Shown: positions 44,962-59,436 of the stretch, piece by piece
How positions within the stretch are numbered: position 1 is the stretch's first letter
Layout: every line of letters starts with the position of its first letter
DNA from: Nitratireductor thuwali
GTDB taxonomy: Bacteria > Pseudomonadota > Alphaproteobacteria > Rhizobiales > Rhizobiaceae
DNA: 64,000 nt
Direction: 5' to 3'
Assembly (NCBI RefSeq): GCF_036621415.1
Contig: NZ_CP030941.1
Span: 2,664,001 to 2,728,000, forward strand
Notes under the pieces: model-generated
Told to the model about the DNA's origin: nothing
The model's database searches: none
Seen by the model: the letters and a program-made list of their open reading frames with translations, nothing else
Program-made: the position numbers and the translations under genes

Positions 44962-45783
44962 TCACTCTTGCGGAGCCGGCTTTGCTCTGACGTCGGGACC
45001 CACAGGACGTCTCTCGGCGCCATAAAGGCTGTCTTCAACCTCTTGTGCGGTCGCGCGCAAGCGGCCCAGGGCCGTCTGCATGGCGCTTTCGGTGAACCGG
45101 CTGGAAGGTCCGAATGCCGAGATTCCCGCGATCATGCGGCCGGTTCGGGTAAGGATAGGAACGGCCACGGCGCGTATGCCGTCCTCGCGCTCCGAATCGT
45201 TTATGGCGTAGCGCTGTTCCCGCACTTTCTCCAGTTCCGCATTCAGCGCTTCCAGGTCGATGATCGTGTTCGTGGTGAAGCGCACGCGCTCTACGGATTG
45301 CAGATAACGTTCGCGCTCGTGGTCGGGCATGTATGCCAGCCATGTCTTTCCATGCGCCGTGCAATAGGCTTCGAGCTGGGTGCCCACGCGGATATCCACG
45401 GAGAGCGAGCGCTTCGATGTGGCACGGGCGATACAGGTCACCATGTCGGAACGGAACACCGTGGCCATCGTCGCCTCCTGCAATTCCTCGGTGAGGCGAT
45501 TGAGAAATGGCTGCAGGAGGCGTGCCAGCGCATCGTTGCGCAGGACGCGGTCGCCGAGATCGGCAAAGACGTAGCCGAGCCGATAGATACCCTTTGTCAC
45601 GGCCACCAGCGCGCCGACATGTTCGAGCGTCCGCAGGAACCGGTGTGCGGTGATGGCGTTCATGCCGGTCTCGCGAGCCACGTCGGCGGCGGTCAATTCA
45701 GGGCGCTCCTGAGAAAACAGTTTGAGGATGGCGAACGCCTTGACAACCGATCCATTGATTTGCGCGACCACGATCCCGTCCAT
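44962..45783 (-). CDS. IclR-family transcriptional regulator
   Basis: A 273-residue regulator with the N-terminal winged helix (VVKAFAILKLFSQERPELTAADVARETGMN, HRFLRTLEHVGAL) and the C-terminal effector domain containing GTQLEAYCTAHGKTWLAYM. It lies directly downstream, on the same strand, of a TRAP operon and near a catabolic gene set, so it probably controls their expression. IclR proteins in such places usually respond to aromatic or organic acids. Confidence 0.9.
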   Translation of the reverse strand: MDGIVVAQINGSVVKAFAILKLFSQERPELTAADVARETGMNAITAHRFLRTLEHVGALVAVTKGIYRLGYVFADLGDRVLRNDALARLLQPFLNRLTEELQEATMATVFRSDMVTCIARATSKRSLSVDIRVGTQLEAYCTAHGKTWLAYMPDHERERYLQSVERVRFTTNTIIDLEALNAELEKVREQRYAINDSEREDGIRAVAVPILTRTGRMIAGISAFGPSSRFTESAMQTALGRLRATAQEVEDSLYGAERRPVGPDVRAKPAPQE

Positions 45784-45793
45784 TCACCTAGAG

Positions 45794-45845
45794 GCAATTC
45801 CAGGAAGTGGAAATCGGCTTCCCCTCTGGAATTGCGTTAGATCAA
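45794..45845. repeat. Palindromic element (GCAATTCCAG type, copy 2)
   Basis: GCAATTCCAG (45794-45803) pairs perfectly with CTGGAATTGC (45836-45845). The same design starts the element at 44100. It lies in the gap between the IclR start and the end of the TRAP operon. Confidence 0.7.
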
Positions 45846-45894
45846 GCAGTTGGAACATTTCAACGTCTCTTCGAAATGATCCGGCCGCCGCCCG

Positions 45895-47217
45895 CTACTT
45901 TAGAACTGCTGGCAATACAAGCGCCAGCCACGGGAAAGCGATTAGAAGTGCCACACGCACCAGTTCGACCAGAAAGAAGGGCAGCGCGCCTTTGAAGGTC
46001 TCTCGCATCGGCACGTCGCGCGCGATTGCACTGATGACGAAGACATTCATGCCGACCGGCGGCGTGATCAGCCCCAGTTCGACGACGATCAGCGCCAGAA
46101 TGCCAAACCATATCTTCGTCTCCTCGGGACCCATGCCGAAGTCGAGACCGGATATGACGGGCCAGAAGAAGGGGATGGCCAGCAGGATCATCGACAGGCT
46201 GTCCATCAGGCAGCCGAGCAGGATGAGCGCGGCGAGGAGCAGGACGAGGATGGTCAGTGGTGCCAGGCCGCTCGTCGCCATCATTTGTGCGGCGGCCTGC
46301 GGAACGCCGCCGCGCGACATGAAAATCTCCAGGAGTTCGGCGCCCAGCAGGATGAGGTAGATCATGCCCGATGTCCTGGCTGTCGCAAGAAGTGCGGCGC
46401 GTATCGCGCCAAGGCCCACGAGCCGGGTGGCAATTCCGTAGGCCAGCACCAGGAACACGCCTATGGCCGCGGCGGGCGTCGGATTGAAGAAGCCTAGATA
46501 GATGCCGCCGATGACAAGGCCGAAAATGATGGCGACGGGCAGCACTCCCAGGGTCGCTGTAATGAATTCCTGCCGCGAAACCGGGTCGGCGCGCGGTCCG
46601 GAATCAGGGAAGACGCGCACATAGACCGCGATGGTCAGGATGAACAGGATTACGGCCAGGATGCCGGGGATGAGGGCGGCGGCGAACATCTGGACGATGT
46701 TGGCCTCGACGATGATCGAGTAGACGACCAGCACGACCGAGGGTGGAATCAAGATGCCCAGCACGCCGCCGGCGGCCAGTGTACCCGTGGCAAGAGCTGG
46801 CGAATAGCGGTAGCGCTTTAGTTCGGGCAGGGCGACGTGACCCATGGTGGAGGCGGTGGCGAGAGAGGAGCCGCAGACCGCGCCGAAGCCGGCGCAGGCG
46901 GCGACCGCCGACATGGCCACACCGCCGCGGAACCGTCCGAGCCAGGCATTGGCACCGCGGAAAAGGCTTTGGGAGAGCCCTGCATGGGTGGCCAGGTGTC
47001 CCATCAGCACGAATAGCGGGACGACCGAGAGATCGTAGTTGGCGAAGACGCCATAGGCGAGCGTCTTCATCTGCGACATCAGCACGAGCGGGCCCGAAAG
47101 CATGACGATGCCGCCCGCTCCGACAATGATCATGGCGTATGCGATGGGCATGCGCAGCACGATCATGACGATCAGGATGCCAAGTCCGGACAGGCCGAGA
47201 AGGAGTTCGTTTTGCAC
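45895..47217 (-). CDS. TRAP transporter large permease (DctM)
   Basis: A 440-residue membrane protein with the usual twelve-helix arrangement: LLGLSGLGILIVMIVLRMPIA, VPLFVLMGHLATHAGLSQSLF, LAAGGVLGILIPPSVVLVVY and GLITPPVGMNVFVISAIA. It is the third gene of the operon DctP-DctQ-DctM. It couples Na+ or H+ entry to uptake of the acid bound by the DctP upstream. Confidence 0.92.
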   Translation of the reverse strand: MQNELLLGLSGLGILIVMIVLRMPIAYAMIIVGAGGIVMLSGPLVLMSQMKTLAYGVFANYDLSVVPLFVLMGHLATHAGLSQSLFRGANAWLGRFRGGVAMSAVAACAGFGAVCGSSLATASTMGHVALPELKRYRYSPALATGTLAAGGVLGILIPPSVVLVVYSIIVEANIVQMFAAALIPGILAVILFILTIAVYVRVFPDSGPRADPVSRQEFITATLGVLPVAIIFGLVIGGIYLGFFNPTPAAAIGVFLVLAYGIATRLVGLGAIRAALLATARTSGMIYLILLGAELLEIFMSRGGVPQAAAQMMATSGLAPLTILVLLLAALILLGCLMDSLSMILLAIPFFWPVISGLDFGMGPEETKIWFGILALIVVELGLITPPVGMNVFVISAIARDVPMRETFKGALPFFLVELVRVALLIAFPWLALVLPAVLK

Positions 47218-47292
47218 GTCGTCAGCGCCTTTCGCAGGCCCGCAGCGGACCTGGCCTTATCCTGCTTGTGGAAGAAGAGTGGCTGGCGGCCG

Positions 47293-47817
47293 TCACCTCG
47301 GGCCGCCTTCTTCGGGAATCCTGCCGCCGAGAGCATCGACGAACGTGATCAGCGCGGCGGCAAAAAGGAGGGCGATGGAAACGAGGATGGGAATATAGGC
47401 AGCCCAGATGGGAAACTGGTAGATCGCCGTCGTTTCCTCGTAGAGCCGCAGATCGTGAAATCCTGCATGCATGCGTGAAAACAGGAACGCCGCGAAGAGG
47501 GCGGCGACTGCCGACGCGACCGCGGTCAGCCCCGCTAGAAGTCGGGGACCGGCGCCCGAAGTGAAGATGTCGGCCGTGACATTGGCGCCGGAGAGCTGGC
47601 AATAGGGTAGGAATGCAAAGACGGCGACCGCGACGCCGACTTCCACGATCTCAAAATCGCCGGGAAAGGGACTGCCCGCCACAATGAAGCTGGTCAGGCT
47701 CAGTGCGTTGACCAGCACCACCCCGAGAAGAACGATCCCGCCGGCGATCGCCCAGTATTCGATGGCGCGGCGCAGTATCGCCGTCAGCCGCGCCATCATG
47801 CCCGTCCAATGCGCCAT
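47293..47817 (-). CDS. TRAP transporter small permease (DctQ)
   Basis: A 174-residue four-helix protein. I chose ATG at 47817 (MAHWTGMMARLTAILRRAIE), one base after the DctP stop. Helices lie in AIAGGIVLLGVVLVNALSL, IVEVGVAVAVFAFLPYCQL and IPILVSIALLFAAALITFV. The segment GANVTADIFTSG takes the place of the usual GHVRVD motif of DctQ. It is longer in the middle than the second DctQ of the window. Confidence 0.85.
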   Translation of the reverse strand: MAHWTGMMARLTAILRRAIEYWAIAGGIVLLGVVLVNALSLTSFIVAGSPFPGDFEIVEVGVAVAVFAFLPYCQLSGANVTADIFTSGAGPRLLAGLTAVASAVAALFAAFLFSRMHAGFHDLRLYEETTAIYQFPIWAAYIPILVSIALLFAAALITFVDALGGRIPEEGGPR

Positions 47818-47818
47818 C

Positions 47819-48880
47819 TCAGTTGGCTTGTGCGTGCTTCGCGATAGCGGCCCGGGCCGCCTCCACAAGCGCATTGCCGTCGATGCCTTTGGCGCTGACT
47901 TCCTCGACCCAACGCTCCACCACGGGCTCCAGAACCGTTTGGAACGCGGCGGTTTCCTCTTCGGTTAGGGTAATATGATCATTGCCGGCCTCGACGGCCA
48001 GTGCGATGCCCTTGTCATCGATGTCGCGCCATATGCGGCCGACCTCACGCACCCATTCATCATCTGAATTGTCGAGGAAAATCTGCTGGATGTCCTCGGG
48101 TAGGCTGTCCCACTTCGCCTGATTCATCGACACTTGGAAAGTCGTCGTGCCGAAGCGGGTCTTGTCGGCGCCCTCGATCTGATAGTCGGTTAAATCCTGC
48201 AGTTTCAGGGCGGGGATGATCTCCCACGGAATGAGGGCGCCGTCGACCACCTTGCGCGACAGCGACTGGGGCAGGTCGGGAACGGGCATGGAAACAGGAT
48301 TGGCCCCCAGCGCCTCCACCACCCAGGCGCCGGTGCGCGTGGGGATGCGGATGCGCTTGCCTGCCAGATCGTCCGGGCTGCGCACTTCCTGGTCGACCAT
48401 ATGGATCCCCTGGCCGGCATGGACATGGTTGAACAGCACCTTGATGCCTGAATATTCCTCGGCCAGATATTCGTCGAACATCTCGCGCATGGCCAGGTTG
48501 GTGGCAACGGGATCGTTGGTGTGGATGAAGGGAAGCTCGAAGACTTCCGAGCGGGGGAAAAGACCCGCCGTGTAGCCGTTCACCGTCCATACGATATCGA
48601 CGACGCCGTCGCGCACCTGGTTGATGAGTTCCGGCGGGCGCCCACCCAGCGACATGGCGGGATAGATCTCGATCTGGACGCGGCCTTCAGATGCCTCTTC
48701 GATGCGTTCGGCCCATGGAGCCAGCATGTCGGTCTGCGCGGGGGCGTTGGGCCCCAGGAAATGGTGCAGCTTCAGCGTGATCGTTTCCTGGGCAAGGCCG
48801 GTCCCGGCGAAGCCCAGCATCGCAAGGGCCGCCCCGGTGACGAGACAGGCGGCGCGGCGCGCTCCAGATAATGGTTTCAT
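47819..48880 (-). CDS. TRAP transporter substrate-binding protein (DctP)
   Basis: A 353-residue periplasmic binding protein, with start at 48880 preceded by GGAGGAAGAA. The leader has ACLVTGAALAMLGFAGTGLAQ. The parts LKLHHFLGPNAPAQTDML, AGKRIRIPTRTGAWVVEALG (with the carboxylate-binding Arg) and VVDGALIPWEIIP are typical. It is the first gene of a leftward TRAP operon, divergent from the thiamine-diphosphate enzyme. The shared regulatory region suggests that its ligand feeds that enzyme. Confidence 0.9.
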   Translation of the reverse strand: MKPLSGARRAACLVTGAALAMLGFAGTGLAQETITLKLHHFLGPNAPAQTDMLAPWAERIEEASEGRVQIEIYPAMSLGGRPPELINQVRDGVVDIVWTVNGYTAGLFPRSEVFELPFIHTNDPVATNLAMREMFDEYLAEEYSGIKVLFNHVHAGQGIHMVDQEVRSPDDLAGKRIRIPTRTGAWVVEALGANPVSMPVPDLPQSLSRKVVDGALIPWEIIPALKLQDLTDYQIEGADKTRFGTTTFQVSMNQAKWDSLPEDIQQIFLDNSDDEWVREVGRIWRDIDDKGIALAVEAGNDHITLTEEETAAFQTVLEPVVERWVEEVSAKGIDGNALVEAARAAIAKHAQAN

Positions 48881-49057
48881 TTCTTCCTCCCGGTTCAGTT
48901 CAAACGAAATCAGGCGCAAGATCGATCACGATTCACACCCGCCGATTACGGCTTTCCCCCATCCCGGAGCCAACTGGCTCCTCCTCCCGGACGAAGGCCT
49001 TCCACCGCTGCGGCATCGAAATCCGCCAAAAGAGATTGACGGCGGCAAATTCTATTG

Positions 49058-49072
49058 TCAATCTATAATTGA
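49058..49072. promoter_or_regulatory. Inverted repeat in the TRAP / TPP-enzyme divergent promoter
   Basis: TCAAT CTATA ATTGA is a perfect 5-base inverted repeat with a 5-base centre, within a very AT-rich stretch (about 49045-49095). CTATTG and CAATAG also flank this stretch. It is a candidate operator for the IclR regulator nearby. Confidence 0.45.
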
Positions 49073-49154
49073 ATTACATATTTCAAATATAGCAATAGAT
49101 GCTCAGTTGGATCCAGCTTTGAAGAACGAATATCCACCGAAGGAAGACCTGCAA

Positions 49155-50843
49155 ATGACCGCCGGCGGAGCTCTGCTGGCGCGCATGAAAACCCTTGGGA
49201 TCGACTATATCTTCGCCAATTCGGGGACCGATTTCCCCCCGGTGATCGAGGGGCTGGCGGAGGCGGAGGCCAAGGGCCTGTCGCTGCCGCGCGCGCTCGT
49301 CATGCCGCACGAATCCGCGGCCATGGGAATGGCACACGGCTATTATCTGGCGACGGGGCGTCCGCAGGCGGTCATGGCGCATACCAATGTGGGTCTTGCC
49401 AATTGCGCCATCGGCGCCATCAATGCAGCAACCGAACACGTGCCGATGTTGCTTTTCTCCGGTCGCACGCCGACGACGGAGAAGGATCGCCTGGGCGCGC
49501 GAACCGTGCCCATCGGCTGGGGTCAGGAGATGCGCGACCAGACGGCGCTGGTCCGTGAAACCTGCAAATGGGACTATGAGTTGCGTTTTCCCGAGCAGGT
49601 GGAGGAGATCGTGGACCGGGCGCTGGCAATCGCCGATTCCGCGCCGCGCGGCCCGGTCTATATCAGCCTGCCGCGCGAGGTTCTTTGCCAGCCGTCCCCA
49701 TCTGCCGGGATAGGCCGCGACGCTATCATGACTGCGACCGTCACGGGCGTTCATCCGGAAGGGCTGCAAGCGGCTGCCAGGCTTCTTGCCGAGGCGCGCA
49801 ACCCGCTGATCATAGCGCAGCGCGGGGCAGGCGGGGAAGCCGGCTTTTCCGCCTTGCAGGCCATCGCGGACGAATGGGCCATTCCTGTCTGCCAGTATTG
49901 GGCCGTGCGGCTTGCCCTGCCGCTCGATCATCCGATGGCCGCGCCGGCTGATCCCGGTCCCCTGATCGATAAGGCCGACGTCATTCTCGTCATCGATTCG
50001 CTGGCTCCCTGGGCGCCCGACAGCCATCGCCCCGCAGCCACCTGCCGGGTGGTCCATATGGGACAGGATCCGCTCTACAGCCGCTTTCCGGTGCGCAATT
50101 TCCGTTGCGATATAGGGCTTGCCTGCGAGGTGGAGGATGGGCTCATAGCGCTGAAAGCGGCAATGGAAGCGCTGAAACCGGCGGAGAAGGCCGCCGGCGA
50201 AGCACGACGCGAGGCACTCGCCGCGGCCAATCGCGCCGCGCGCGCGCGCGCCGTCGGGCAGGCGGAAGCCGGGCAGGGCGCACCGATGACCAAGGAATGG
50301 GTGAGCCTGTGCCTTTCGCGCGCGATCGAGGGGCGGGGGGCGTCGGTTTTCTCCGAACTCGGTTGTCCCATGGCGCCAATGAGCCTCGATCATGCCAAGG
50401 CCTGGTACCAGGAGCCGCATTCGGGCGGGCTCGGCTGGGCCTTTCCTGCTGCGCTCGGCATGCAGCTTGCCGAGCGCGACCGGCTGGTCGTCGCCACCAT
50501 GGGCGACGGCTCCTATATGTTCGCCAATCCCGTCGCCTGTCATCAGATCGCGGAGGCGCTGGAGCTGCCGGTCCTGGTGATCATCCTCAACAATGCCGAA
50601 TGGGGCGCGGTGCGTCATTCCGTGCTCGGAATCTATCCCGATGGATATGCTTCGCGCACCAACGCCATGCCGCTCACCGGCCTTTCGCCCATACCCGATT
50701 TCGCGCGCGTGGCGGAGGCAAGCCGTGCCTTTGCCCGCACGGTGCGCGACGGGGCGGAACTGCCGGGCGTTATCGCAGAGGCGCTGCGCCATATCGACGA
50801 GAAACGGGGCCTTGCGCTGATCGACGTGCATGTGCGCCCGTGA
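49155..50843 (+). CDS. Thiamine-diphosphate-dependent enzyme (acetolactate synthase / benzoylformate decarboxylase-like)
   Basis: A 562-residue enzyme with three domains of the pyruvate-oxidase/acetolactate-synthase fold. The catalytic Glu53 lies in PHESAAMGMAHGYY. The Mg-ThDP motif starts at GDGSYMFANP near residue 450 and ends at ILNN. I chose ATG 49155, preceded by AAGGAAG; the frame is open upstream without support. Such enzymes decarboxylate 2-keto acids or ligate/cleave hydroxyketones. It stands directly before a cupin dioxygenase. Its reaction is not identified by sequence alone; no FAD-specific features are obvious. Confidence 0.85.
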   Translation: MTAGGALLARMKTLGIDYIFANSGTDFPPVIEGLAEAEAKGLSLPRALVMPHESAAMGMAHGYYLATGRPQAVMAHTNVGLANCAIGAINAATEHVPMLLFSGRTPTTEKDRLGARTVPIGWGQEMRDQTALVRETCKWDYELRFPEQVEEIVDRALAIADSAPRGPVYISLPREVLCQPSPSAGIGRDAIMTATVTGVHPEGLQAAARLLAEARNPLIIAQRGAGGEAGFSALQAIADEWAIPVCQYWAVRLALPLDHPMAAPADPGPLIDKADVILVIDSLAPWAPDSHRPAATCRVVHMGQDPLYSRFPVRNFRCDIGLACEVEDGLIALKAAMEALKPAEKAAGEARREALAAANRAARARAVGQAEAGQGAPMTKEWVSLCLSRAIEGRGASVFSELGCPMAPMSLDHAKAWYQEPHSGGLGWAFPAALGMQLAERDRLVVATMGDGSYMFANPVACHQIAEALELPVLVIILNNAEWGAVRHSVLGIYPDGYASRTNAMPLTGLSPIPDFARVAEASRAFARTVRDGAELPGVIAEALRHIDEKRGLALIDVHVRP

Positions 50844-50876
50844 ACCACACCCAGCCGCGAAGCGAGGAGAAGAGCC

Positions 50877-51410
50877 ATGGCGGAACCGGCGACGACCGAA
50901 TTCTGGAAGGAATTGAAACCGATCAAGAAAGTATTCCAGCGCGACGCGCTCCCGGAGGTCTATCTGGCCGACGCGCCGACAGGGGATGAGCGCTATTACG
51001 TGCCGTTTACTGAGACTGTTTCCTCGCGCCCATTGTGGATTTCGCCGACACAGAACAAATGGTGTGACATACTGATGGCCAAGAGCGCAGGCCTGGTAAA
51101 CCGTCACTACCATCCGCACGAGGTGTTCGCCTACACGATTTCCGGAAAGTGGGGCTACTTGGAACACGATTGGACGGCGACCGCCGGCGATTTCGTCTAC
51201 GAGACGCCAGGCGAGGGGCACACGCTGGTAGCCTATGAGCACGAGGATCCGATGCGCGTCTTCTTCCAGGTCAAGGGGCCGCTCATCTGGCTCGACGAGA
51301 AGGGCGAACCGGACGGCTTCTTCGACGTGCACAATTATATAGAGCTGTGCCGCACCCACTACGAAAAGATCGGCCTCGGCGCGGGCTATGTGGAGAAGCT
51401 GTTCCGCTGA
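50877..51410 (+). CDS. Cupin dioxygenase, 2,4'-dihydroxyacetophenone dioxygenase family
   Basis: A 177-residue single cupin. The first cupin motif has His77, His79 and His81 (NRHYHPHEVF) and ends with SGKWGYLEHDW; the second motif has His115 in GEGHTLVAY. The pattern closely follows 2,4'-dihydroxyacetophenone dioxygenase, an Fe-dependent enzyme that cleaves the C-C bond of an aryl ketone carrying an alpha-hydroxyl. Here it is 33 bases downstream of the thiamine-diphosphate enzyme. The actual substrate may be a related hydroxyketone made or used by that enzyme. Confidence 0.85.
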   Translation: MAEPATTEFWKELKPIKKVFQRDALPEVYLADAPTGDERYYVPFTETVSSRPLWISPTQNKWCDILMAKSAGLVNRHYHPHEVFAYTISGKWGYLEHDWTATAGDFVYETPGEGHTLVAYEHEDPMRVFFQVKGPLIWLDEKGEPDGFFDVHNYIELCRTHYEKIGLGAGYVEKLFR

Positions 51411-51422
51411 AACAGCCATCTC

Positions 51423-52178
51423 CTATGTCGACATGCCGCCATCGACCACCAGTGTCGTACCGGTCGTGAAGCTGCTGTCGCTGGAGGCCAGGTAGAGTAC
51501 GGATCGCGCCACTTCCTCGGCGCGTGCGTGCCGGCCGAGCGGGATGAGGTCGTTGAAGAACGCCGTCCCGTCGACGCCCATCTGGCTGCCGAGTCCTTCC
51601 TCCACCGCATATTGAAACCCGTTGTCTACCGGTCCCGGATGGATGGTGTTGACGCGGATGCCGCGGGGCGCCAATTCCTTGGCGAGACAGCGCATCAGGC
51701 CGACCTGCGCATGCTTGGCAGTGATATAGGCGTAGACGCCTGGGTCGCCGCGCAGGCCCGCGACGCTGGAAGTGATGACGATGCTGCCTCCGTCCCGCAT
51801 CCTGGGCACGGCATGCTTCGCGGCCAGAAAGGCTCCCTTCACGTGGACCGCATGCACCGCGTCAAACGCCTCCTCGGGATAGTCGGCGATGGGTGCGACG
51901 GCACCGAAATTGCCGGCATTGGAGAAGAGGACATCGATCGGCCCGAAGCGCTCGACCGTGGCCTCGATGTAGCGCTCGGTCTGCCTGGCCGAAGTGACGT
52001 CGGCGGCGAGAGGCACCACCCTGTTGGCAGGCAGGTCAGCGATCGCCCGTTCCAGCGCCTCGCCGTCGCGGTCGACCAACACGACACGCGCACCCTCTGC
52101 GAGGAACAGGCGGGCGGTGGCCTGTCCGAGACTGCCGCCGCCACCCGTGATGATACAGGTCTTGTGCTGGAGTTTCAT
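51423..52178 (-). CDS. SDR-family oxidoreductase
   Basis: A 251-residue SDR with TGGGGSLG near the N-terminus, SNAGNFG, the serine in VITSSVAG and catalytic YITAK. The C-terminal TGTTLVVDGGMST is standard. It converges on the cupin gene and lies 24 bases downstream of the aldehyde dehydrogenase gene on the same strand. It probably oxidises or reduces an alcohol or ketone in the pathway of this island. Confidence 0.88.
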   Translation of the reverse strand: MKLQHKTCIITGGGGSLGQATARLFLAEGARVVLVDRDGEALERAIADLPANRVVPLAADVTSARQTERYIEATVERFGPIDVLFSNAGNFGAVAPIADYPEEAFDAVHAVHVKGAFLAAKHAVPRMRDGGSIVITSSVAGLRGDPGVYAYITAKHAQVGLMRCLAKELAPRGIRVNTIHPGPVDNGFQYAVEEGLGSQMGVDGTAFFNDLIPLGRHARAEEVARSVLYLASSDSSFTTGTTLVVDGGMST

Positions 52179-52202
52179 GACGCGGCACCGATAGGATTCG
52201 TG

Positions 52203-53654
52203 TCAGAATGGATGATGTATCGGGCCATCCTGGACGGTGATCCAGCGCAACTCGGTAAACTCGGCAATACCGGCCTTGCCGCCGAAGCGGCCATAGCCTG
52301 AATCCTTGACGCCGCCGAACGGCATTTGGGCCTCGTCGTGAACGGTCGGGCCGTTGATGTGGCATATTCCCGATTCGATGCGGCGGGCGACCGACATGGC
52401 GCGGTTGATGTCCTTGCCGAAAACCGCCGCGGACAGGCCATATTCCGTGTCGTTGGCAACCCGCACCGCCTCGTCTATGCCGCTCACCCGCACGATCGTG
52501 ACCACGGGGCCAAAACTCTCTTCGCCATAAATGCGCATGTTCGGCGTCACGCGGTCGAGAAGGGTGGCCTCCATGACTGTGCCCTGCACACCGCCGCCGG
52601 CGGCCAGCACCGCGCCCTTGGCGACGGCGTCCTTGATCAATTCCTCAATGCGCCGGGCCGCGCTCTCGTCGACCACGGAGCCCAGAGGTGTGGAGCCTTC
52701 CCGCGGGTCGCCTGCCTTGAGGGAACGTGCCTTTTGCGCCAGTGCGCGGACAAAGGGCTCGGAGATCTTCTCATCGACGACGATACGTTCCGTCGACATG
52801 CATATCTGACCCTGGTTCATATATGCGCCGAAGGCGGCCGCCGCGACGGCGGCATCGAGATCGGCGTCATCGAGCACGACCATGGGCGCCTTGCCGCCAA
52901 GCTCGAGCAGCACCGGTTTGAGGTAGCGTCCCGCCGTCTCCGCTATGATGCGTCCCACACGCGTCGAGCCGGTAAAGTTGACGCGGCGCACGGCGGGATG
53001 GGCGATCAGGGCTTCGACGATGGCCGATGCGTCCTCGGGCGCGTTGGAAAGCGCGTTGAGCACCCCATGCGGCACGCCGCCCTCGTGCAGCGCGTCGACG
53101 ATCAGCCGGTGCGTGCGCGGGCAAAGCTCGGAGGTCTTCATCACCACGGTATTGCCGCAGGCAAGCGGCGTGGCGAGCGATCGCACGCCGAGGATTACGG
53201 GCGCGTTCCACGGTGCCATGGACAGCACGACACCCGCCGGCTGGCGGATGGCCATTGCCGTACTGCCTGGCCGATTGGAAGGAATGATCTCGCCGGTGAT
53301 CTGCGTCGTCAGCGAAGCCGCCTCGCGCAGCATGTCGGCGGCAAGCCCGACATTGAACATGGCCCAGCCAGCGGTCGCTCCAACCTCCTCGGCCATGGCG
53401 GCGACGATGTCTGGCCCCCGTGCTTCGAGGGCGGCCGCGGCTGAAAGCAGGATGCGCCGTCTTTCGCCGGGCCCCGTCGCCGCCCATGCGGGAAAGGCCC
53501 GCGCGGCCGCATCGCAGGCGAGTCGAGCATCTTCGAGGCTGGCTGCTGCGGCGCGCGTGGCCACTTCCCCGGTCATCGGGTTCAAGCGCTCGAAAGTCTG
53601 CCCGCTGGAGGCGCCGCGATCTTCCTCGCCGATCAGCAATCCCAATTGTTCCAT
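52203..53654 (-). CDS. Aldehyde dehydrogenase (vanillin/salicylaldehyde dehydrogenase-like)
   Basis: A 483-residue NAD(P)+-dependent aldehyde dehydrogenase. The substrate loop has NQGQICMSTERIVV with the catalytic Cys, LLELGGKAPMVV holds the general-base Glu, and the cofactor region includes PWNAPVILGVRSLATPL. The pattern NQGQICMSTER is typical of aromatic aldehyde dehydrogenases such as vanillin and salicylaldehyde dehydrogenases. I placed the start at 53654, where GGTAGGAAG precedes the ATG. It suggests an aromatic aldehyde in the pathway. Confidence 0.9.
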   Translation of the reverse strand: MEQLGLLIGEEDRGASSGQTFERLNPMTGEVATRAAAASLEDARLACDAAARAFPAWAATGPGERRRILLSAAAALEARGPDIVAAMAEEVGATAGWAMFNVGLAADMLREAASLTTQITGEIIPSNRPGSTAMAIRQPAGVVLSMAPWNAPVILGVRSLATPLACGNTVVMKTSELCPRTHRLIVDALHEGGVPHGVLNALSNAPEDASAIVEALIAHPAVRRVNFTGSTRVGRIIAETAGRYLKPVLLELGGKAPMVVLDDADLDAAVAAAAFGAYMNQGQICMSTERIVVDEKISEPFVRALAQKARSLKAGDPREGSTPLGSVVDESAARRIEELIKDAVAKGAVLAAGGGVQGTVMEATLLDRVTPNMRIYGEESFGPVVTIVRVSGIDEAVRVANDTEYGLSAAVFGKDINRAMSVARRIESGICHINGPTVHDEAQMPFGGVKDSGYGRFGGKAGIAEFTELRWITVQDGPIHHPF

Positions 53655-53677
53655 CTTCCTACCTCGTCTTGTTTCTG

Positions 53678-54388
53678 TCACGCCATACCCAGGAAAGCCC
53701 GCTGCACGGCGCTGTCTCGCCTCAGTGCAGCCGCCGTTCCCTCTCCAACGATGCGTCCGGCCTCCATCAGATAGCCGCGGTCGGCGACCGACAGGCTCAT
53801 CCGGACATTCTGTTCCACGATCAAAAGGGCAACGCCGGTTTCCCGCACTCGCCCCAGCGTTTCAAAAAGCTCCGTGACGACGACTGGCGCAAGCCCGAGG
53901 CTCGGTTCGTCGAGCATCAGATAGTCGGGCTTCGACATCAGCGCGCGGGCGACGGCCACCATCTGCTGCTCGCCTCCCGACATCGTATTGACGGTTTGAC
54001 GGCGGCGTTCGGCAAGCTTCGGAAAAAGCTCGTATACATGGCGGCGCCGTGTCTCCTCGCCACTGCGCGCACGGCTTGAATAGGCGCCGAGCAACAGGTT
54101 CTGCTCCACCGTAAGATCGCCGAAGACGCCGCGGCCTTCAGGCACCAGCGCGATCCCCATGGAAGGTATGAGATGGGGCGGCAGGCCCGCGATGGGGTTG
54201 CCGTCGAGCTTGATCCGCACACCCTCGTCCGGCTTGACCAGGCCGGCAATCGCTTTCAGGAGCGACGATTTGCCGGCGCCGTTTGCACCCAGAATGACGA
54301 CCGTTTCGCCGCGCCCTATGTTCGCGGCGACGCCGTCAAGGGCCAGATGCTTGCCGTAACGCAGGCTGAGGCCGGAAACTTCAAGCAT
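53678..54388 (-). CDS. livF: Branched-chain-type ABC transporter ATP-binding protein (LivF-like)
   Basis: A 236-residue ATPase. Walker A is GANGAGKSS, the signature is MSGGEQQMVAVARA, Walker B is YLMLDEPSLGLAP and the H-loop is IVEQNVR. It is the last gene of a five-gene Liv-type operon and overlaps the LivG gene. In such systems LivF and LivG form the ATPase pair. The LivF name reflects family, not substrate. Confidence 0.92.
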   Translation of the reverse strand: MLEVSGLSLRYGKHLALDGVAANIGRGETVVILGANGAGKSSLLKAIAGLVKPDEGVRIKLDGNPIAGLPPHLIPSMGIALVPEGRGVFGDLTVEQNLLLGAYSSRARSGEETRRRHVYELFPKLAERRRQTVNTMSGGEQQMVAVARALMSKPDYLMLDEPSLGLAPVVVTELFETLGRVRETGVALLIVEQNVRMSLSVADRGYLMEAGRIVGEGTAAALRRDSAVQRAFLGMA

Positions 54389-55109
54389 GGCTTTCTCCGA
54401 GATAGGCCCGGACGACCTCTGGCTCGCTCAGCACGCTGCCGGTTTCGCCGTCCGCGATCTTGCGTCCCGCATTCATGACCACGCACCGCCCGCACAGCGC
54501 GCGGATGGCATCCATCACATGCTCGACGAGCAGCACGGTCATGCCGTCCCTTTTCAGATCGGAGATCAGCTCGATTCCTGTTGCCAGCTCGGTCGGATTG
54601 AGCCCCGCCAGCCATTCGTCGAGCAGAAGCAGCCTCGGGTCCGATGCCAGCGCCCGGGCGAGCTCCAACCGCTTCTGGTCGATATAGGTGAGTTCGGCGG
54701 TCATCTCGTTTTCCCGGCCGCCAAGGCCAACGCGCTCGAGGCAGGCCAGCGCCTTTTCGCGAGCCGCCGCGCCCCACAGCTTCTCCGGACCGAATGCGGC
54801 GGCCGCCTCCACGTTTTCTGCCACGCGCAAAGAGGGCAGGACACGCACCAGCTGAAAGGTGCGCGCCACGCCGCGCGTGGCGATGCGATGGGCGGGCATG
54901 CCCGCGATCTTTTCCCCGTTGAGCATGATTGCGCCGCCGCTCGCCGGCAGGAGGCCCGAGATCATGTTGAGGACGGTCGTCTTGCCGGAGCCGTTCGGGC
55001 CCAGCAGACCGACGGTCTCGCCCACATCGACAGTGAATGAGACATCGTTGACGGCGGTCAGCCCGCCGAAGCGCTTCCTGAGATCGCGGACTTCCAGAAG
55101 CTGTGTCAT
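54381..55109 (-). CDS. livG: Branched-chain-type ABC transporter ATP-binding protein (LivG-like)
   Basis: A 242-residue ATPase with Walker A GPNGSGKTTV, signature LTYIDQKRLELARALA (degenerate as usual in LivG), Walker B LLLLDEWLAGLNP and H-loop LVEHVMDA. The C-terminus VLSEPEVVRAYLG is typical. It overlaps the LivM gene by 4 bases and LivF by 8. Confidence 0.92.
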   Translation of the reverse strand: MTQLLEVRDLRKRFGGLTAVNDVSFTVDVGETVGLLGPNGSGKTTVLNMISGLLPASGGAIMLNGEKIAGMPAHRIATRGVARTFQLVRVLPSLRVAENVEAAAAFGPEKLWGAAAREKALACLERVGLGGRENEMTAELTYIDQKRLELARALASDPRLLLLDEWLAGLNPTELATGIELISDLKRDGMTVLLVEHVMDAIRALCGRCVVMNAGRKIADGETGSVLSEPEVVRAYLGESHA

Positions 55110-56086
55110 CGCCTGGCCTCCGCCGTGTCACGGGCAAGCGCGCTTTCGGCGCCCGGCATCTGTGGGGTGGGCTTTCGCTGGCCAAACATGCGCTCCGCAA
55201 AGGCCGCGACGCCGCCCGGCAGGGCGAAGACGATCAGGATGAAAAGAAGACCGAGAATGATGGAATAATGATCCGGAAACCTGGCCGATAGCCATTCGAA
55301 GAGCAGGAACAGCGGCACCGCTCCGAGCGCCGGTCCCCACAGCCGGTTGGCCCCGCCCAGAAGCGCCATGATCAGGGTGAGAAACGACAGGGTGGGGTTA
55401 AAGACGATGCCGGGCTCGACATAGGTCCAACGCGGTGCCTGGATCGCGCCGACCAGGGTTATGATGACGGCGCTCAGCGCGAACAGGGCAAGCTTCGTGC
55501 GGGCGATATAGATTCCGCAATGGGCCGCCACGACTTCATCGTCGCCGATCACCTTCAGCGCTAGGCCCAGCCTGTTGCGGCCGATCCACCACGATATGAA
55601 CAGCGTGATCGCCATCAATGCCAGGAGTTGCCAGTAGATTTGCTCCGGCCCGAACGACATGAAGATGTAGCGGCCGAGCGTGCCGGTGACGTTGACCTCG
55701 TACCAGGTGACGAGTTGGCGCACGAGTTCGGCAAGCCCGAAGGTGAATATGACGAAATAGACGCCGGCCAGCCTGAGGGTGGAAAGGCCGACCACCAGCG
55801 CCACGGCAAGCCCAATGGCCGCGGCCGCAGCTAGCACCAGGGGATAGGGCAGCACTTCGTTCAGCGCAGCGACCGTGTAGGCGCCGATGCCGAAAAACGC
55901 AACCGTCGCCAGTGAGACGTAACGGGTGGGGCCGGAGAAAAGCGCCCACGCGCTGGAAAGCGTCACATAGCCGGTAAGCCCGATCAGAAGCCCGATCTGA
56001 TATGGCCCTAGATAGAAGGGCGCCAAGGCCAGCGCGGCGAGAGCGACAAGCGCGGCGGCAAGGATGAGGGCGAGGCGTCCATTCAT
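55106..56086 (-). CDS. livM: Branched-chain-type ABC transporter permease (LivM-like)
   Basis: A 326-residue permease with about ten membrane helices. GYVTLSSAWALFSGPTRYVSLATVAFFGIGAY and RTKLALFALSAVIITLVGAIQAPRW are characteristic of LivM. The C-terminal extension ends in a hydrophilic tail. The start at 56086 overlaps the LivH stop as ATGA. Confidence 0.9.
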   Translation of the reverse strand: MNGRLALILAAALVALAALALAPFYLGPYQIGLLIGLTGYVTLSSAWALFSGPTRYVSLATVAFFGIGAYTVAALNEVLPYPLVLAAAAAIGLAVALVVGLSTLRLAGVYFVIFTFGLAELVRQLVTWYEVNVTGTLGRYIFMSFGPEQIYWQLLALMAITLFISWWIGRNRLGLALKVIGDDEVVAAHCGIYIARTKLALFALSAVIITLVGAIQAPRWTYVEPGIVFNPTLSFLTLIMALLGGANRLWGPALGAVPLFLLFEWLSARFPDHYSIILGLLFILIVFALPGGVAAFAERMFGQRKPTPQMPGAESALARDTAEARR

Positions 56087-56955
56087 CGCGTCGCCTTTCC
56101 GAACAGGCCCTGCGGCCGCCACAGAAGCAGCGTCAGGAAAATCGCATAGGTGGCGGCGAGCGTCAGGCCGGGCTCCAGGTAGGTGGCGACGAAGGTCTCG
56201 ACCATGCCGAGGATGAGCCCGGCGCTGAGCGCGCCGAGAAGATTGCCTACACCGCCCATGATGACGACGATCAGCGCCTTCATGGTGAAGGTCACGCCCG
56301 ATGTGGCGGTGAAAGTCTGGTACATGGAGACGACCACGCCGCCGGCCGCGGCCAGGGCGCCACCGAGCGCAAAGGCAAAGCGCGCGGCGCGATTGACGTC
56401 GATGCCCACGAGCACAGCCGATTGCGGAGCGACGGCGACGGCACGGATCGCCGTGCCCCAGCGCGTGTAACGAAGCAGGGCGTAAAGCGTCAGACCGATA
56501 GTGAGGGCCAGCCCCAGGGCGAGAAGCCTGTTGGCGGCAATGTTCGCCCCCAGGATCGAGACCGGGATGTTCAGATAGGAATAGCTCATATAGTTCGAGC
56601 CGAAGAGAACGAGGAGTACCCCTTGGATGACGAAGAGAAGACCGAAAGTGGCGAGGATCGAATCGATCTCCAGTGCGCCGCGGTCTCCGGCCCTTGCCAC
56701 CAGTGGGCGCATCATGACGCCATAGATGGCGTAGCCGAAGGCAAAGCCTGCCGGGACCACCAGAAGTAGGCCCGTCACCGGATTTAGGCCCAGCGCATCC
56801 TTGAGAACGAATGCGGCGAAGGCCGCGGCGATCATGGTCTCGCCATAGGCCAGGTTCATGATGCGGGCGATGCCGTATTGTAGCGTAAGCCCCATCGCCA
56901 CCAGCGCATAGGTGCCGCCCAGCACCAGACCTGCAATAATTGCGGTCGTCAGCAT
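56083..56955 (-). CDS. livH: Branched-chain-type ABC transporter permease (LivH-like)
   Basis: A 290-residue permease starting MLTTAIIAGLVLGGTYALVAMG, with CAGGAAG upstream. Motifs YGIARIMNLAYGETMIAAAF and GGVGNLLGALSAGLILGMVE are typical of LivH. Together with LivM it forms the membrane channel. Confidence 0.92.
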   Translation of the reverse strand: MLTTAIIAGLVLGGTYALVAMGLTLQYGIARIMNLAYGETMIAAAFAAFVLKDALGLNPVTGLLLVVPAGFAFGYAIYGVMMRPLVARAGDRGALEIDSILATFGLLFVIQGVLLVLFGSNYMSYSYLNIPVSILGANIAANRLLALGLALTIGLTLYALLRYTRWGTAIRAVAVAPQSAVLVGIDVNRAARFAFALGGALAAAGGVVVSMYQTFTATSGVTFTMKALIVVIMGGVGNLLGALSAGLILGMVETFVATYLEPGLTLAATYAIFLTLLLWRPQGLFGKATR

Positions 56956-57065
56956 TTCGACTTCCTGACCTGTTGTTTCCTTGGCGATGACGGCACCGCT
57001 GCGCTGCTCCCCATCCTCCGCCGCCGCCCGGCAACGGGAGGATGTGGAGCGGGCCCTGCCGTCGG

Positions 57066-58295
57066 CTAATTCTTCCAGGGCGCCTTGGGCAGCCTCGGCT
57101 TGGCTGCGCCGGGCCTGTCGGGCGGTGCGATGCCGACAAAGACGCCGTCCTGCCATTGTCCGGTCCACCAGAGGTCGCGGAGCTGGTTGTTTTCGAGCTT
57201 GGTTTCGCCCAGCACGGTCTGGAAGGTGCCGGTGGACAGCTCTTGCGATACGGCCTCCCGGTCAAGGCCGACGCGCCTGATTGCCTCCTGCAGCATTTCC
57301 AGGCTAGCATAGGTGATCACGCTGCCCCAGTAGTCAGGCCCCTGGCCCGTCAGCTCCTGATGCCGTTGGCGATAGGCACGGTTGGCCTCGTTGGCGGGGT
57401 CGATGCCGCCGAGGCTCATGACTCCCTCGGCAGCGGGGTTGTCTTCGCCGTAAGCCGGAAATCCAACGCCGACGCCAAGGTAGAAGACCCTGGGATTATA
57501 GCCTGAAACCTGCGCCTGTTGGGTCAGCGCAAAGGTGTCGGGCGGGTAGGAGAAGGCAACGAAACTGTCGGCTTCGGTCCCCGAAGCCTCGTTGACCATC
57601 GGCGAGAAGTCGGTCGTCCCGACGGGATAGGTCTTGTCGTAGACGATCTCGATATCCGCCTCGGCAAAGGCTTCCCGCGCCGCGGTCACGAGGTCGATGC
57701 CGAACCCGTCGGCCACCGAGATCATCGCCACCTTGTCGTTGATGGTTCCCGCTTCACGCGCGTCGACGAGCACATTGGCCAGTGCGTCCGTATAGTCGGC
57801 GCCGCCGCCCAGGAACCAGAAGCTCCTCGGCCAGCGCTCGACGAATTCGGGCGCCTTGTCGGTCACCGACGAAACGGCAAGCTGCGGATAGCCGTAGCGG
57901 TCGAACAGCGGCGCAACCGCCAGATTAAAGCCGGTCCCCCAGGGAGGCAGGATGAAATCGACCTCGTCCTGCGTGGCCAGGCGCTCCACGGCGCGGACCA
58001 CCTCCTCCGCCGACGAGCGGTCGTCATATTCGATCAGCTCGATCGGCAGCCTGCTGCCGTCGGGCATTTCCAGGCCGCCCGCCTCCTTCACGTCGTTGAT
58101 CCAGAGCTGATAGTTGGGAATCGTCGTGATGCCTGCTCCGCCCGCATTGACGCCGGTCTTGGATACGGCATAGCCGATCTTGACCGAAGTCCGCTCCTGC
58201 GCGGCGCCGTTTGCCGGCCAGATGGCCAGCGCCGCCAGGGCAATCGTCGATAGCAGCAAAGAGGGCGCGCGGCGCCCGCCGGTTGGTTCTAGCAT
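57066..58295 (-). CDS. Branched-chain-type ABC transporter substrate-binding protein (LivK-like)
   Basis: A 409-residue type I periplasmic binding protein. The start at 58295 has GGAGGAGA upstream, and the leader is followed by AAQERTSVKIGYAVSKTG. The fold is shown by YQLWINDVKEAGGLEM, ELIEYDDRSSAEE and VAMISVADGFGIDL. Such proteins bind branched amino acids, amides or aromatic acids; the latter is favoured by the aldehyde dehydrogenase and cupin in this island. It begins the operon and is divergent from an AraC regulator. Confidence 0.9.
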   Translation of the reverse strand: MLEPTGGRRAPSLLLSTIALAALAIWPANGAAQERTSVKIGYAVSKTGVNAGGAGITTIPNYQLWINDVKEAGGLEMPDGSRLPIELIEYDDRSSAEEVVRAVERLATQDEVDFILPPWGTGFNLAVAPLFDRYGYPQLAVSSVTDKAPEFVERWPRSFWFLGGGADYTDALANVLVDAREAGTINDKVAMISVADGFGIDLVTAAREAFAEADIEIVYDKTYPVGTTDFSPMVNEASGTEADSFVAFSYPPDTFALTQQAQVSGYNPRVFYLGVGVGFPAYGEDNPAAEGVMSLGGIDPANEANRAYRQRHQELTGQGPDYWGSVITYASLEMLQEAIRRVGLDREAVSQELSTGTFQTVLGETKLENNQLRDLWWTGQWQDGVFVGIAPPDRPGAAKPRLPKAPWKN

Positions 58296-58524
58296 AAGGT
58301 TCTCCTCCACATGTCGCACCGGATCTCTGGCGCGCGCTTGCCGGCTGACGCGTTCCAGTCCCGTGACCTCCCGGGGGACTGGAATGCGAATGTCGCCGAT
58401 AGGCTGCGTGAGCCCGATCCGTTTCCTCCGCATGCAGGGAAGATGTTAAACCGCTGCCAAAACCTGCAAATGGACTTATTGCGCAAAGAATTGTACTTTT
58501 GACCGAGGCCAACGGGAAACGTTC

Positions 58525-59436
58525 ATGGTATTCGGCAGCAGCGGTGACCGCGGTTCTGTGGGAAACTCCGAAGTCGCACCCATCGTGGTGCTTCCCGAGA
58601 CGGAGGCGGTGGCGGTGAAGACCGCCTTGTCGCCTGTCGCTTGGACGCTGCACGGGAACCGCAACCGCGCTTACGTGCTCATTTCGGGTACGGGTCGGCT
58701 CTCCATGGAGGGCAAGGTGGTGCAACTTGCATCGCCTTGCGTCCTATGGCTGCCGACTGGCAACGCCGCCACACTGACCCTCGAAGCCGGCGCGCGAGGG
58801 GCGGCGCTCGCGGCTTCCGAACTCGCCATCGGGCGGGCGGTGCCGTCCGGTCCCATAGGCGGGCAGGTCAAGGATGCGCTGTTCCACCCCGTTCTGGGCG
58901 CGAAGGTGGAGCCGGCGGTCGCCCAGGATCTGTGTCGTTCGATCGAAGCGGTGGGAGAGGAGTTGCGGCACGACCGGCCGGGCGGTCAGGACGCCGCGCG
59001 CTATCACCTCGTCCTGGTTCTGATCGCGCTCTGGCGTACGTCGAGCCCCGAGGCACCGGCGCCGCAATCTGCGCCGCGCGCGATCGTGCGCAATTTTCTT
59101 CACCTTGTGGAACTGCACGCCCGCGACCACTGGCGCATTGAAGACTATGCCCGCTTCCTGTCTATCTCCCGAGGCAGGCTGGGCAGCGCCGTCAAACGCG
59201 TCACCGGCCGCTCGGCGCTGGCGCTCATCAATGCCCGTCTGGTGGCCGAAGCAGAGGTGCTGCTGGGCGGAACGAACCTGCAGGCATCGGAAGTTGCCGA
59301 AGCTCTGGGTTTCAAGGACGCCGCCTATTTCAGCCGGTTCTTCAAGCGCGAAACCGGCGTCACTCCCGGCCGTATGCGACGCGAGGCCGTGTTGCGCAAA
59401 TCAAGGCGCGCCCAGTCTTTCGCCGCATGGCCTTGA
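58525..59436 (+). CDS. AraC-family transcriptional regulator
   Basis: A 303-residue regulator. The N-terminal domain is a cupin-like ligand domain (WTLHGNRNRAYVLISGTGRL, VLWLPTGNAATL). The C-terminal double helix-turn-helix has HWRIEDYARFLSISRGRL and ASEVAEALGFKDAAYFSRFFKRETG. It is divergent from the Liv-type operon and is the likely activator of it. It may also regulate the aldehyde dehydrogenase and SDR genes. Confidence 0.9.
   Translation: MVFGSSGDRGSVGNSEVAPIVVLPETEAVAVKTALSPVAWTLHGNRNRAYVLISGTGRLSMEGKVVQLASPCVLWLPTGNAATLTLEAGARGAALAASELAIGRAVPSGPIGGQVKDALFHPVLGAKVEPAVAQDLCRSIEAVGEELRHDRPGGQDAARYHLVLVLIALWRTSSPEAPAPQSAPRAIVRNFLHLVELHARDHWRIEDYARFLSISRGRLGSAVKRVTGRSALALINARLVAEAEVLLGGTNLQASEVAEALGFKDAAYFSRFFKRETGVTPGRMRREAVLRKSRRAQSFAAWP

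Follow-up and report, generated by a model that had tools for sequence, protein, structure and literature searches.

A predicted 2,4'-dihydroxyacetophenone dioxygenase in a catabolic island of Nitratireductor thuwali, with a thiamine-diphosphate enzyme and two uptake systems

Closest described systems and layout of the island

The 2,4'-dihydroxyacetophenone dioxygenase (DAD) of solved structure (4p9g, 5bpx) comes from Alcaligenes sp. 4HAP and turns its substrate, described as a lignin breakdown product, into an acid and formate without an aldehyde (PMC4219425), and in Comamonas the enzyme has been placed upstream of 4-hydroxybenzoate in the pathway (PMC6307125). A cupin resembling the Alcaligenes enzyme over residues 4-177, in the iron-ligand histidines and in all site residues but one is encoded in an island of 14 genes in Nitratireductor thuwali, at positions 44962-59436 of the window, that is, the whole stretch of 64,000 nucleotides analysed (contig NZ_CP030941.1). 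Different from the system of strain 4HAP, the DAD gene of the island directly follows a gene for a thiamine-diphosphate (ThDP) enzyme and lies beside a short-chain dehydrogenase/reductase (SDR), an aldehyde dehydrogenase (ALDH) and two transporters. The island probably, if by no means surely, encodes a peripheral pathway for aromatics, with two routes that would shorten the side chains of inferred substrates and meet at 4-hydroxybenzoate.

The pathway for mandelate and 4-hydroxymandelate comprises a dehydrogenase, benzoylformate decarboxylase and benzaldehyde dehydrogenase. The island shares with it a ThDP enzyme and an aromatic ALDH, and some relatives of the ThDP enzyme adjoin an (S)-mandelate-dehydrogenase-like gene, whereas the island ThDP enzyme itself belongs to the PRK08327 group, reaching 93 bits at best against solved benzoylformate decarboxylases, and searches of the N. 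thuwali genome found no mandelate dehydrogenase. In Rhodopseudomonas palustris, CouPSTU and TarPQM likewise bring a Liv-type ABC transporter and a TRAP transporter to one aromatic catabolic locus, and the binding proteins of both bind aromatic acids, TarP also 4-hydroxyphenylpyruvate; that locus, however, serves p-coumarate by a non-beta-oxidation route, and no DAD is mentioned in the accessible portion of the text (PMC3610893). Cluster G-II of Novosphingobium MBES04 is a small cluster with a DAD-like gene, induced by lignin fragments, but it has four genes, the other three being called hypothetical, and the word 'thiamine' does not occur in that publication (PMC10866074). The accessible part of PMC13101465 deals with a different dihydroxyacetophenone. 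An earlier note on this DNA could name no known pathway with this set of genes, which holds for the exact set, but both halves and the double uptake have precedents; no description of a ThDP-DAD unit was found in the open PMC titles and abstract starts, which are far from the whole literature.

Profile searches of the window, part of a 4.75-Mb genome, confirmed all the genes that the earlier note had recognized within these 14.5 kb, so that the gene content is directly supported. The IclR and TRAP genes lie on the minus strand, the ThDP enzyme and cupin genes on the plus strand, the SDR, ALDH and five Liv genes on the minus strand and the AraC gene on the plus strand. With the same direction and a spacing of 33 nt, the ThDP enzyme and cupin genes probably form one transcription unit divergent from the TRAP genes, as had been proposed. 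The features are as follows.

44962-45783, minus strand: IclR-family regulator, PcaR/PcaU/PobR-like but under the cut-off of that subfamily (TIGR02431, 189 bits; cut-off 284.75)
45895-47217, minus strand: DctM, TRAP large permease (profile matches)
47293-47874, minus strand: DctQ, TRAP small permease, start not settled (profile match)
47819-48880, minus strand: DctP, TRAP solute-binding protein (profile match, start from translation; nearest solved chains 7nr2, 5im2, 7nsw, 7nrr and 5i5p)
49063-49092, no strand: 30-bp palindrome CTATAATTGAA-N8-TTCAAATATAG, candidate IclR operator (alignment, pattern searches)
49155-50843, plus strand: ThDP enzyme, PRK08327 group, with a proposed role as arylglyoxylate (4-hydroxybenzoylformate) decarboxylase (NF006203, 672 bits)
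50877-51410, plus strand: predicted DAD, cupin (4p9g match, site residues)
51423-52178, minus strand: SDR, with a proposed role as dehydrogenase of aryl 1,2-diols / alpha-hydroxyketones (closest solved relatives 4i5g/4bms, 162 bits)
52203-53654, minus strand: aromatic ALDH, by its matches of the salicylaldehyde/vanillin dehydrogenase type (6qhn, 636 bits; 9ihb, 619 bits)
53678-54388, minus strand: LivF-type ATPase (profile match)
54381-55109, minus strand: LivG-type ATPase (profile match)
55106-56086, minus strand: LivM-type permease, start approximate (permease domain at residues 445-694 of an over-extended open reading frame (ORF) of 734 amino acids)
56083-57168, minus strand: LivH-type permease, coordinates of the listed ORF, which starts too early (profile match)
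57066-58433, minus strand: LivK-type binding protein, coordinates of the listed ORF, which probably starts too early (profile match)
58525-59436, plus strand: AraC-family regulator, divergent from the Liv-ALDH-SDR genes (profile matches)

The ORF listed for the ThDP enzyme opens at 48702 and is over-extended, since its Pfam domains begin only at residue ~152 and a protein of 562 amino acids with 98% identity (P0001) places the start near 49155. The stretch 48702-49154 is an open in-frame extension that overlaps dctP and the promoter and belongs to the over-extended ORF, not to a longer protein.

Enzymes, uptake systems and downstream genes

Among solved structures, the cupin matched DAD 4p9g with 321 bits along residues 4-177 of its 177, followed by a second DAD entry with 293 bits, and the next solved cupin scored only 64 bits. 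The residues compared were the 21 named for the iron site and the cavity in section 3.4 of PMC4219425; with a one-residue offset, 20 of the 21 are identical to DAD, the sole exception being M156, which is Leu in the cupin, and the iron ligands His76, His78 and His114 and Tyr93 are all kept. By family and active site, the cupin is a DAD, with the predicted formation of 4-hydroxybenzoate and formate as its activity. A second group of DAD-like cupins with 37-46% identity occurs in relatives (17 loci, L092-L108) and also on plasmids, where 39 of the 49 records are under 60% identity.

The ThDP enzyme passes the cut-off of NF006203/PRK08327 (456 bits) and stays below that of the benzoylformate decarboxylase model NF005485 (140 bits, cut-off 493), for which reason only a mode of working like benzoylformate decarboxylase is proposed and the family assignment is limited to PRK08327. 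Its relatives go under the database names 'thiamine pyrophosphate-requiring protein' or 'acetolactate synthase'; the proposal offers this group a testable function. Of the benzoylformate decarboxylase residues with roles in the active site (the catalytic Glu, His70 and His281), E60 and H83 match Glu and His70, and His281 is without a counterpart; H83 was rejected as a subfamily marker because it is present in all 20 sequences of the next paralogous group as well. Two further attempts at naming the reaction were given up, a fold comparison that gave no discrimination and a profile search of solved structures that ended in a three-way tie with an acetohydroxyacid synthase as the top match. Sequence and fold by themselves do not settle the reaction of this enzyme.

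The best solved matches of the ALDH are salicylaldehyde/vanillin dehydrogenases (636, 619 and 534 bits), followed by 4-hydroxybenzaldehyde (337 bits) and then benzaldehyde (323 bits) dehydrogenases, by which it is classed as a salicylaldehyde/vanillin-type aromatic aldehyde dehydrogenase. The best solved matches of DctP, given in the list above, are presumably aromatic-acid binders, and the solved relatives of LivK are weak, with 41 bits at best. The alcohol dehydrogenases 4i5g/4bms nearest to the SDR are presumably RasADH of Ralstonia, accepting aryl ketones and hydroxyketones. For RasADH, use on aromatic ketones, and nothing beyond, is borne out by the accessible part of PMC7411633. Downstream functions are encoded ~2 Mb from the island, where pobA (672 bits, cut-off 538.7) is adjoined by pcaH (358 bits, cut-off 296.4) and a weaker match of 98 bits after pcaH is probably pcaG. 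Uptake of 4-hydroxybenzoate by TRAP, ABC and MFS transporters has been described, no more than that in the accessible text (PMC12442348).

Neighbourhoods of DAD and of the ThDP enzyme

A cupin scan of GTDB genomes gave 281 relatives of DAD, of which the best 80 by closeness to the query were kept for neighbourhood counts, so that fractions among them are not unbiased. Neighbours were called by tblastn at identity thresholds of 50-60%, since a simple ORF caller missed DAD in some loci and gave antisense artefacts (c9, c12, c15 and c16 among them). Near DAD, SDR and LivF were each found in 61 of the 80 loci, ALDH in 39, the ThDP enzyme in 27 and DctM in 10, and 14 loci had none of the five. The ThDP enzyme, SDR, ALDH and LivF occurred together in 23 loci (16 without and 7 with DctM), and in 19 of the 52 loci whose flanks extend 9 kb or more in both directions. 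In 26 of the 27 ThDP loci, the two matches share a strand and only 17-51 nt lie between the end of the ThDP match and the DAD match that follows; the exception is L041, one of the 23 four-gene loci, where 9 kb separate them. On an annotated plasmid of an Ensifer strain from plastic debris (L210), LivKHMGF, ALDH, SDR, ThDP enzyme and DAD all run in one direction. The earlier note had suggested looking for a conserved neighbourhood in other Rhizobiales and had staked its model on the ThDP enzyme, cupin, SDR and ALDH co-occurring in other genomes, and both were found: the co-occurrence in the 23 loci just given, and a conserved unit in other Rhizobiales, which the data support directly.

In a family sample of 297 genomes, 23 carried DAD (E <= 1e-60), and a ThDP relative of at least 54% identity was present in 15 of these 23 versus 32 of the 274 others (Fisher p 2e-8, a hand tally uncorrected for kinship). 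Among DAD genomes without a ThDP gene directly before DAD, 30 of the 43 searched have no ThDP match at E <= 1e-150. Within the 80 loci, ALDH goes together with the ThDP enzyme: a ThDP gene accompanies 33 of the 39 DAD loci with ALDH, in 26 cases in the locus (L041 included, at 9 kb) and in 7 elsewhere in the genome, and for the 41 loci without ALDH it was present in 5 of the 29 genomes searched (11 were not searched, and L003 has the ThDP gene but ends just after DAD; kinship uncorrected).

In Shinella L014, pcaH, pcaG and pcaB adjoin the ThDP-DAD pair, and the pcaH and pcaG clusters c27 and c28 are also present in three further loci (L008, L010, L026). Together with the pobA and pcaH genes of the N. 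thuwali genome, this points to 4-hydroxybenzoate and protocatechuate as meeting points. Other settings of DAD were met as well. An Agrobacterium plasmid typed conjugative (L211) carries DAD and a Liv-type ABC transporter with an annotated 2,3-butanediol dehydrogenase in the place of the SDR. Eight DAD genes with 79-82% identity (L044, L046, L049, L050, L058, L064, L075, L079) have no ThDP enzyme, SDR, ALDH, LivF or DctM above threshold near them, and in L064 an MFS-transporter-like gene follows DAD.

Relatives of the ThDP enzyme that occur without DAD were compared as a test set of 39 loci (54-71% identity; L167 was left out as a member of the control group) with 20 controls taken from the next paralogous ThDP group (L189-L208, 46-50% identity), using the same queries. 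TRAP genes were near 23 of 39 test versus 2 of 20 control loci, a salicylaldehyde-dehydrogenase-like ALDH (at least 55% identity) near 10 versus 0, and IclR near 11 versus 0. Taken one by one, mandelate dehydrogenase (at least 50% to that of L154; near 5 of 39 versus 0 of 20, p = 0.16), PobA (2 versus 0, p = 0.54) and Pca genes (3 versus 0, p = 0.54) did not differ significantly, PobA lying over its cut-off near TRAP and ThDP genes in L165 and L151. Any of ALDH, mandelate dehydrogenase, PobA and Pca occurred in 17 of 39 versus 0 of 20 loci (p = 2e-4), with thresholds chosen by the authors and several queries drawn from the test set itself (L148, L154, L165); without L164 and L165, which belong to the DAD-linked ThDP clade, aromatic partners were near 15 of 37. 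The linkage of the ThDP relatives to aromatic genes is thus directly supported.

With no identity threshold, 23 of the 39 test loci and 14 of the 20 controls had an ALDH-family gene nearby, and a flavin mononucleotide (FMN) dehydrogenase was near 6 of 39 and 4 of 20, so that the two groups differ in the kind of partner and not in having one. In L195, the one control locus tested, the ALDH is nearest to succinate/ketoglutaric semialdehyde dehydrogenases (538 bits) and the FMN enzyme scores higher with lactate oxidase (252 bits) than with mandelate dehydrogenase (210 bits). The FMN enzyme of the test locus L154 reaches 439 bits with (S)-mandelate dehydrogenase 6bfg and 303 bits with the best lactate oxidase, and matches in NCBIfam lactate-dehydrogenase-type models only, below cut-off. 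A pattern of hydroxyacid oxidase, ThDP enzyme and ALDH in both groups would be in keeping with decarboxylation of 2-oxo acids, aromatic ones in the test group and others in the controls. The partners in the control group hint at a parallel, non-aromatic pathway. Two of the ThDP relatives (L162, L163) share another setting, with genes for proteins of 584 and 311 amino acids and an aldehyde-dehydrogenase-family gene, and no TRAP gene in the stretch.

Proposed routes, rival explanations and regulation

In the proposed pathway, the Liv-type ABC transporter would import an aryl glycol or hydroxyketone, the SDR, presumably working in the oxidative direction, would convert the diol to ArCOCH2OH, and DAD with O2 would split the latter into ArCOOH and formate. 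In the second route, the compound imported by TRAP would be an aryl 2-oxo acid, in the likeliest case 4-hydroxybenzoylformate or one of its precursors, which the ThDP enzyme would decarboxylate to an aryl aldehyde and the ALDH oxidise to the aryl acid. From 4-hydroxybenzoate onwards, PobA and PcaH(G), whose genes lie outside the island, would lead to ring cleavage. Two such routes would account for an island that initially matched no known pathway, with plant-type aromatics imported and two kinds of C2 side chain led to one product. They would also place DAD in a conserved pathway of Alphaproteobacteria that has uptake systems and regulators of its own, and provide a ready-made gene set for funnelling aromatics with C2 side chains to 4-hydroxybenzoate.

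The compounds that the earlier note proposed for transcript comparisons included aryl-ketones and aromatic acids, and aromatic substrates are judged probable here. Its serial order, in which the ThDP enzyme makes or cleaves a compound, the cupin splits it and the resulting aldehyde is oxidised, was set aside in view of the DAD chemistry and the neighbourhoods of the ThDP relatives: an aldehyde from the cupin is chemically unlikely, because DAD yields acid and formate (PMC4219425). An aromatic aldehyde is still the probable substrate of the ALDH, and its source is more plausibly the ThDP enzyme than the cupin, as some DAD-less relatives pair with mandelate dehydrogenase (5/39) and with an aromatic-type ALDH (10/39).

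Another serial scheme would have the ThDP enzyme act as a carboligase or lyase on the hydroxyketone of DAD itself (ArCOCH2OH <-> ArCHO and a one-carbon unit), as an oxygen-independent alternative with the ALDH finishing the aldehyde. The position of the ThDP gene directly before DAD in 26 of 27 loci, 17-51 nt apart on one strand, speaks for it, the ALDH is shared, and fold and profile fit ligases as well as decarboxylases. Nevertheless, the mandelate dehydrogenase beside 5 of the 39 DAD-less relatives yields an arylglyoxylate, on which a decarboxylase would act, and 30 of the 43 searched genomes without the ThDP gene directly before DAD lack a ThDP match, so this scheme is considered unlikely.

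Unlikely to a similar degree is a lower pathway for 4-hydroxyacetophenone- or bisphenol-type pollutants or lignin beta-aryl ethers, where DAD would take the hydroxyketone, the ALDH 4-hydroxybenzaldehyde and the ThDP enzyme a side product. The origin of DAD in strain 4HAP and its substrate from lignin breakdown (PMC4219425) agree with it, as do the induction of the DAD-like cluster of Novosphingobium MBES04 by guaiacylhydroxypropanone and 2,4'-dihydroxyacetophenone (PMC10866074) and the Liv, ALDH, SDR, ThDP and DAD genes of the Ensifer strain from plastic debris, but no Baeyer-Villiger monooxygenase or acetophenone hydroxylase turned up among the neighbour genes scanned, a small selection and not a survey. 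That the ThDP enzyme is a ligase resembling acetolactate synthase, serves unrelated metabolism and merely has its gene in the operon, as the name 'acetolactate synthase' used for relatives by some sources and the acetohydroxyacid synthase as top profile match would allow, is very improbable given the tight same-strand spacing to DAD, the uneven distribution of ThDP relatives between genomes with and without DAD (15/23 versus 32/274, kinship uncorrected) and the single DAD-linked ThDP subclade described below.

Beyond the two-route reading, a bolder form of it is put forward tentatively and is more doubtful than not: the island would hold two ways of removing the same C2 side chain, the O2-dependent split by DAD and an O2-independent decarboxylation by ThDP enzymes forming a new family of arylglyoxylate decarboxylases. 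It would have arisen by fusion of a Liv-SDR-DAD and a TRAP-ThDP module and would lead mixtures of lignin-type C2 aromatics to 4-hydroxybenzoate at any level of oxygen. In a quick-search tree of the ThDP enzymes, one subclade unites all 27 DAD-linked rows and, in addition, L164 and L165 (SH-aLRT 86, short of the 95 mark), and the DAD-link label needs 3 changes versus 15.5 in shuffles. L165 is a TRAP-ThDP locus with pobA and pca genes, and DAD lies elsewhere in the same genome. In Rhizobium deserti, ALDH-MarR-TRAP-ThDP-mandelate dehydrogenase (L172) stands side by side with AraC and Liv-ALDH-SDR-DAD (L041). L164 (961-2034) keeps the ThDP enzyme, SDR and ALDH, no DAD was found between its SDR and ThDP genes, and it is a possible natural deletion of DAD. 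Possible natural stages would thus be the modules side by side in R. deserti (L172 and L041), fused in Nitratireductor, and with DAD absent again in L164. So neat a story of two modules is weakened by the ALDH, which was probably with DAD before the ThDP enzyme, since the ALDHs of ThDP-less DAD loci, those of Ferrovibrio and Roseomonas included, group with the ALDHs of the remaining DAD loci in a single clade (support 94).

Aligning the stretches before the ThDP gene of the window and nine loci brought out the palindrome CTATAATTGAA-N8-TTCAAATATAG in the promoter region between the TRAP and ThDP-DAD units. It was not listed by the inverted-repeat finder, no exact run longer than five bases being shared by its arms. 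With up to 3 mismatches allowed, it is the sole copy in the window (0 in 100 shuffles) and in the whole genome (control pattern 0), which directly supports a unique operator-like site. In a search of 142 sequences (the window, the 80 DAD loci and 61 other loci), it recurred at no more than 1 mismatch in L002-L005 and at 4 mismatches in L029 and L038, with none in reversed sequences. The palindrome is a candidate operator through which IclR would control both divergent units, TRAP and ThDP-DAD, and AraC, divergent from LivK, probably serves Liv-ALDH-SDR. Upstream of the ThDP gene in two Devosia loci (L031, L039), a shared stretch TTCTCAAATATAGA resembles half of this operator and is possibly a second site near iclR.

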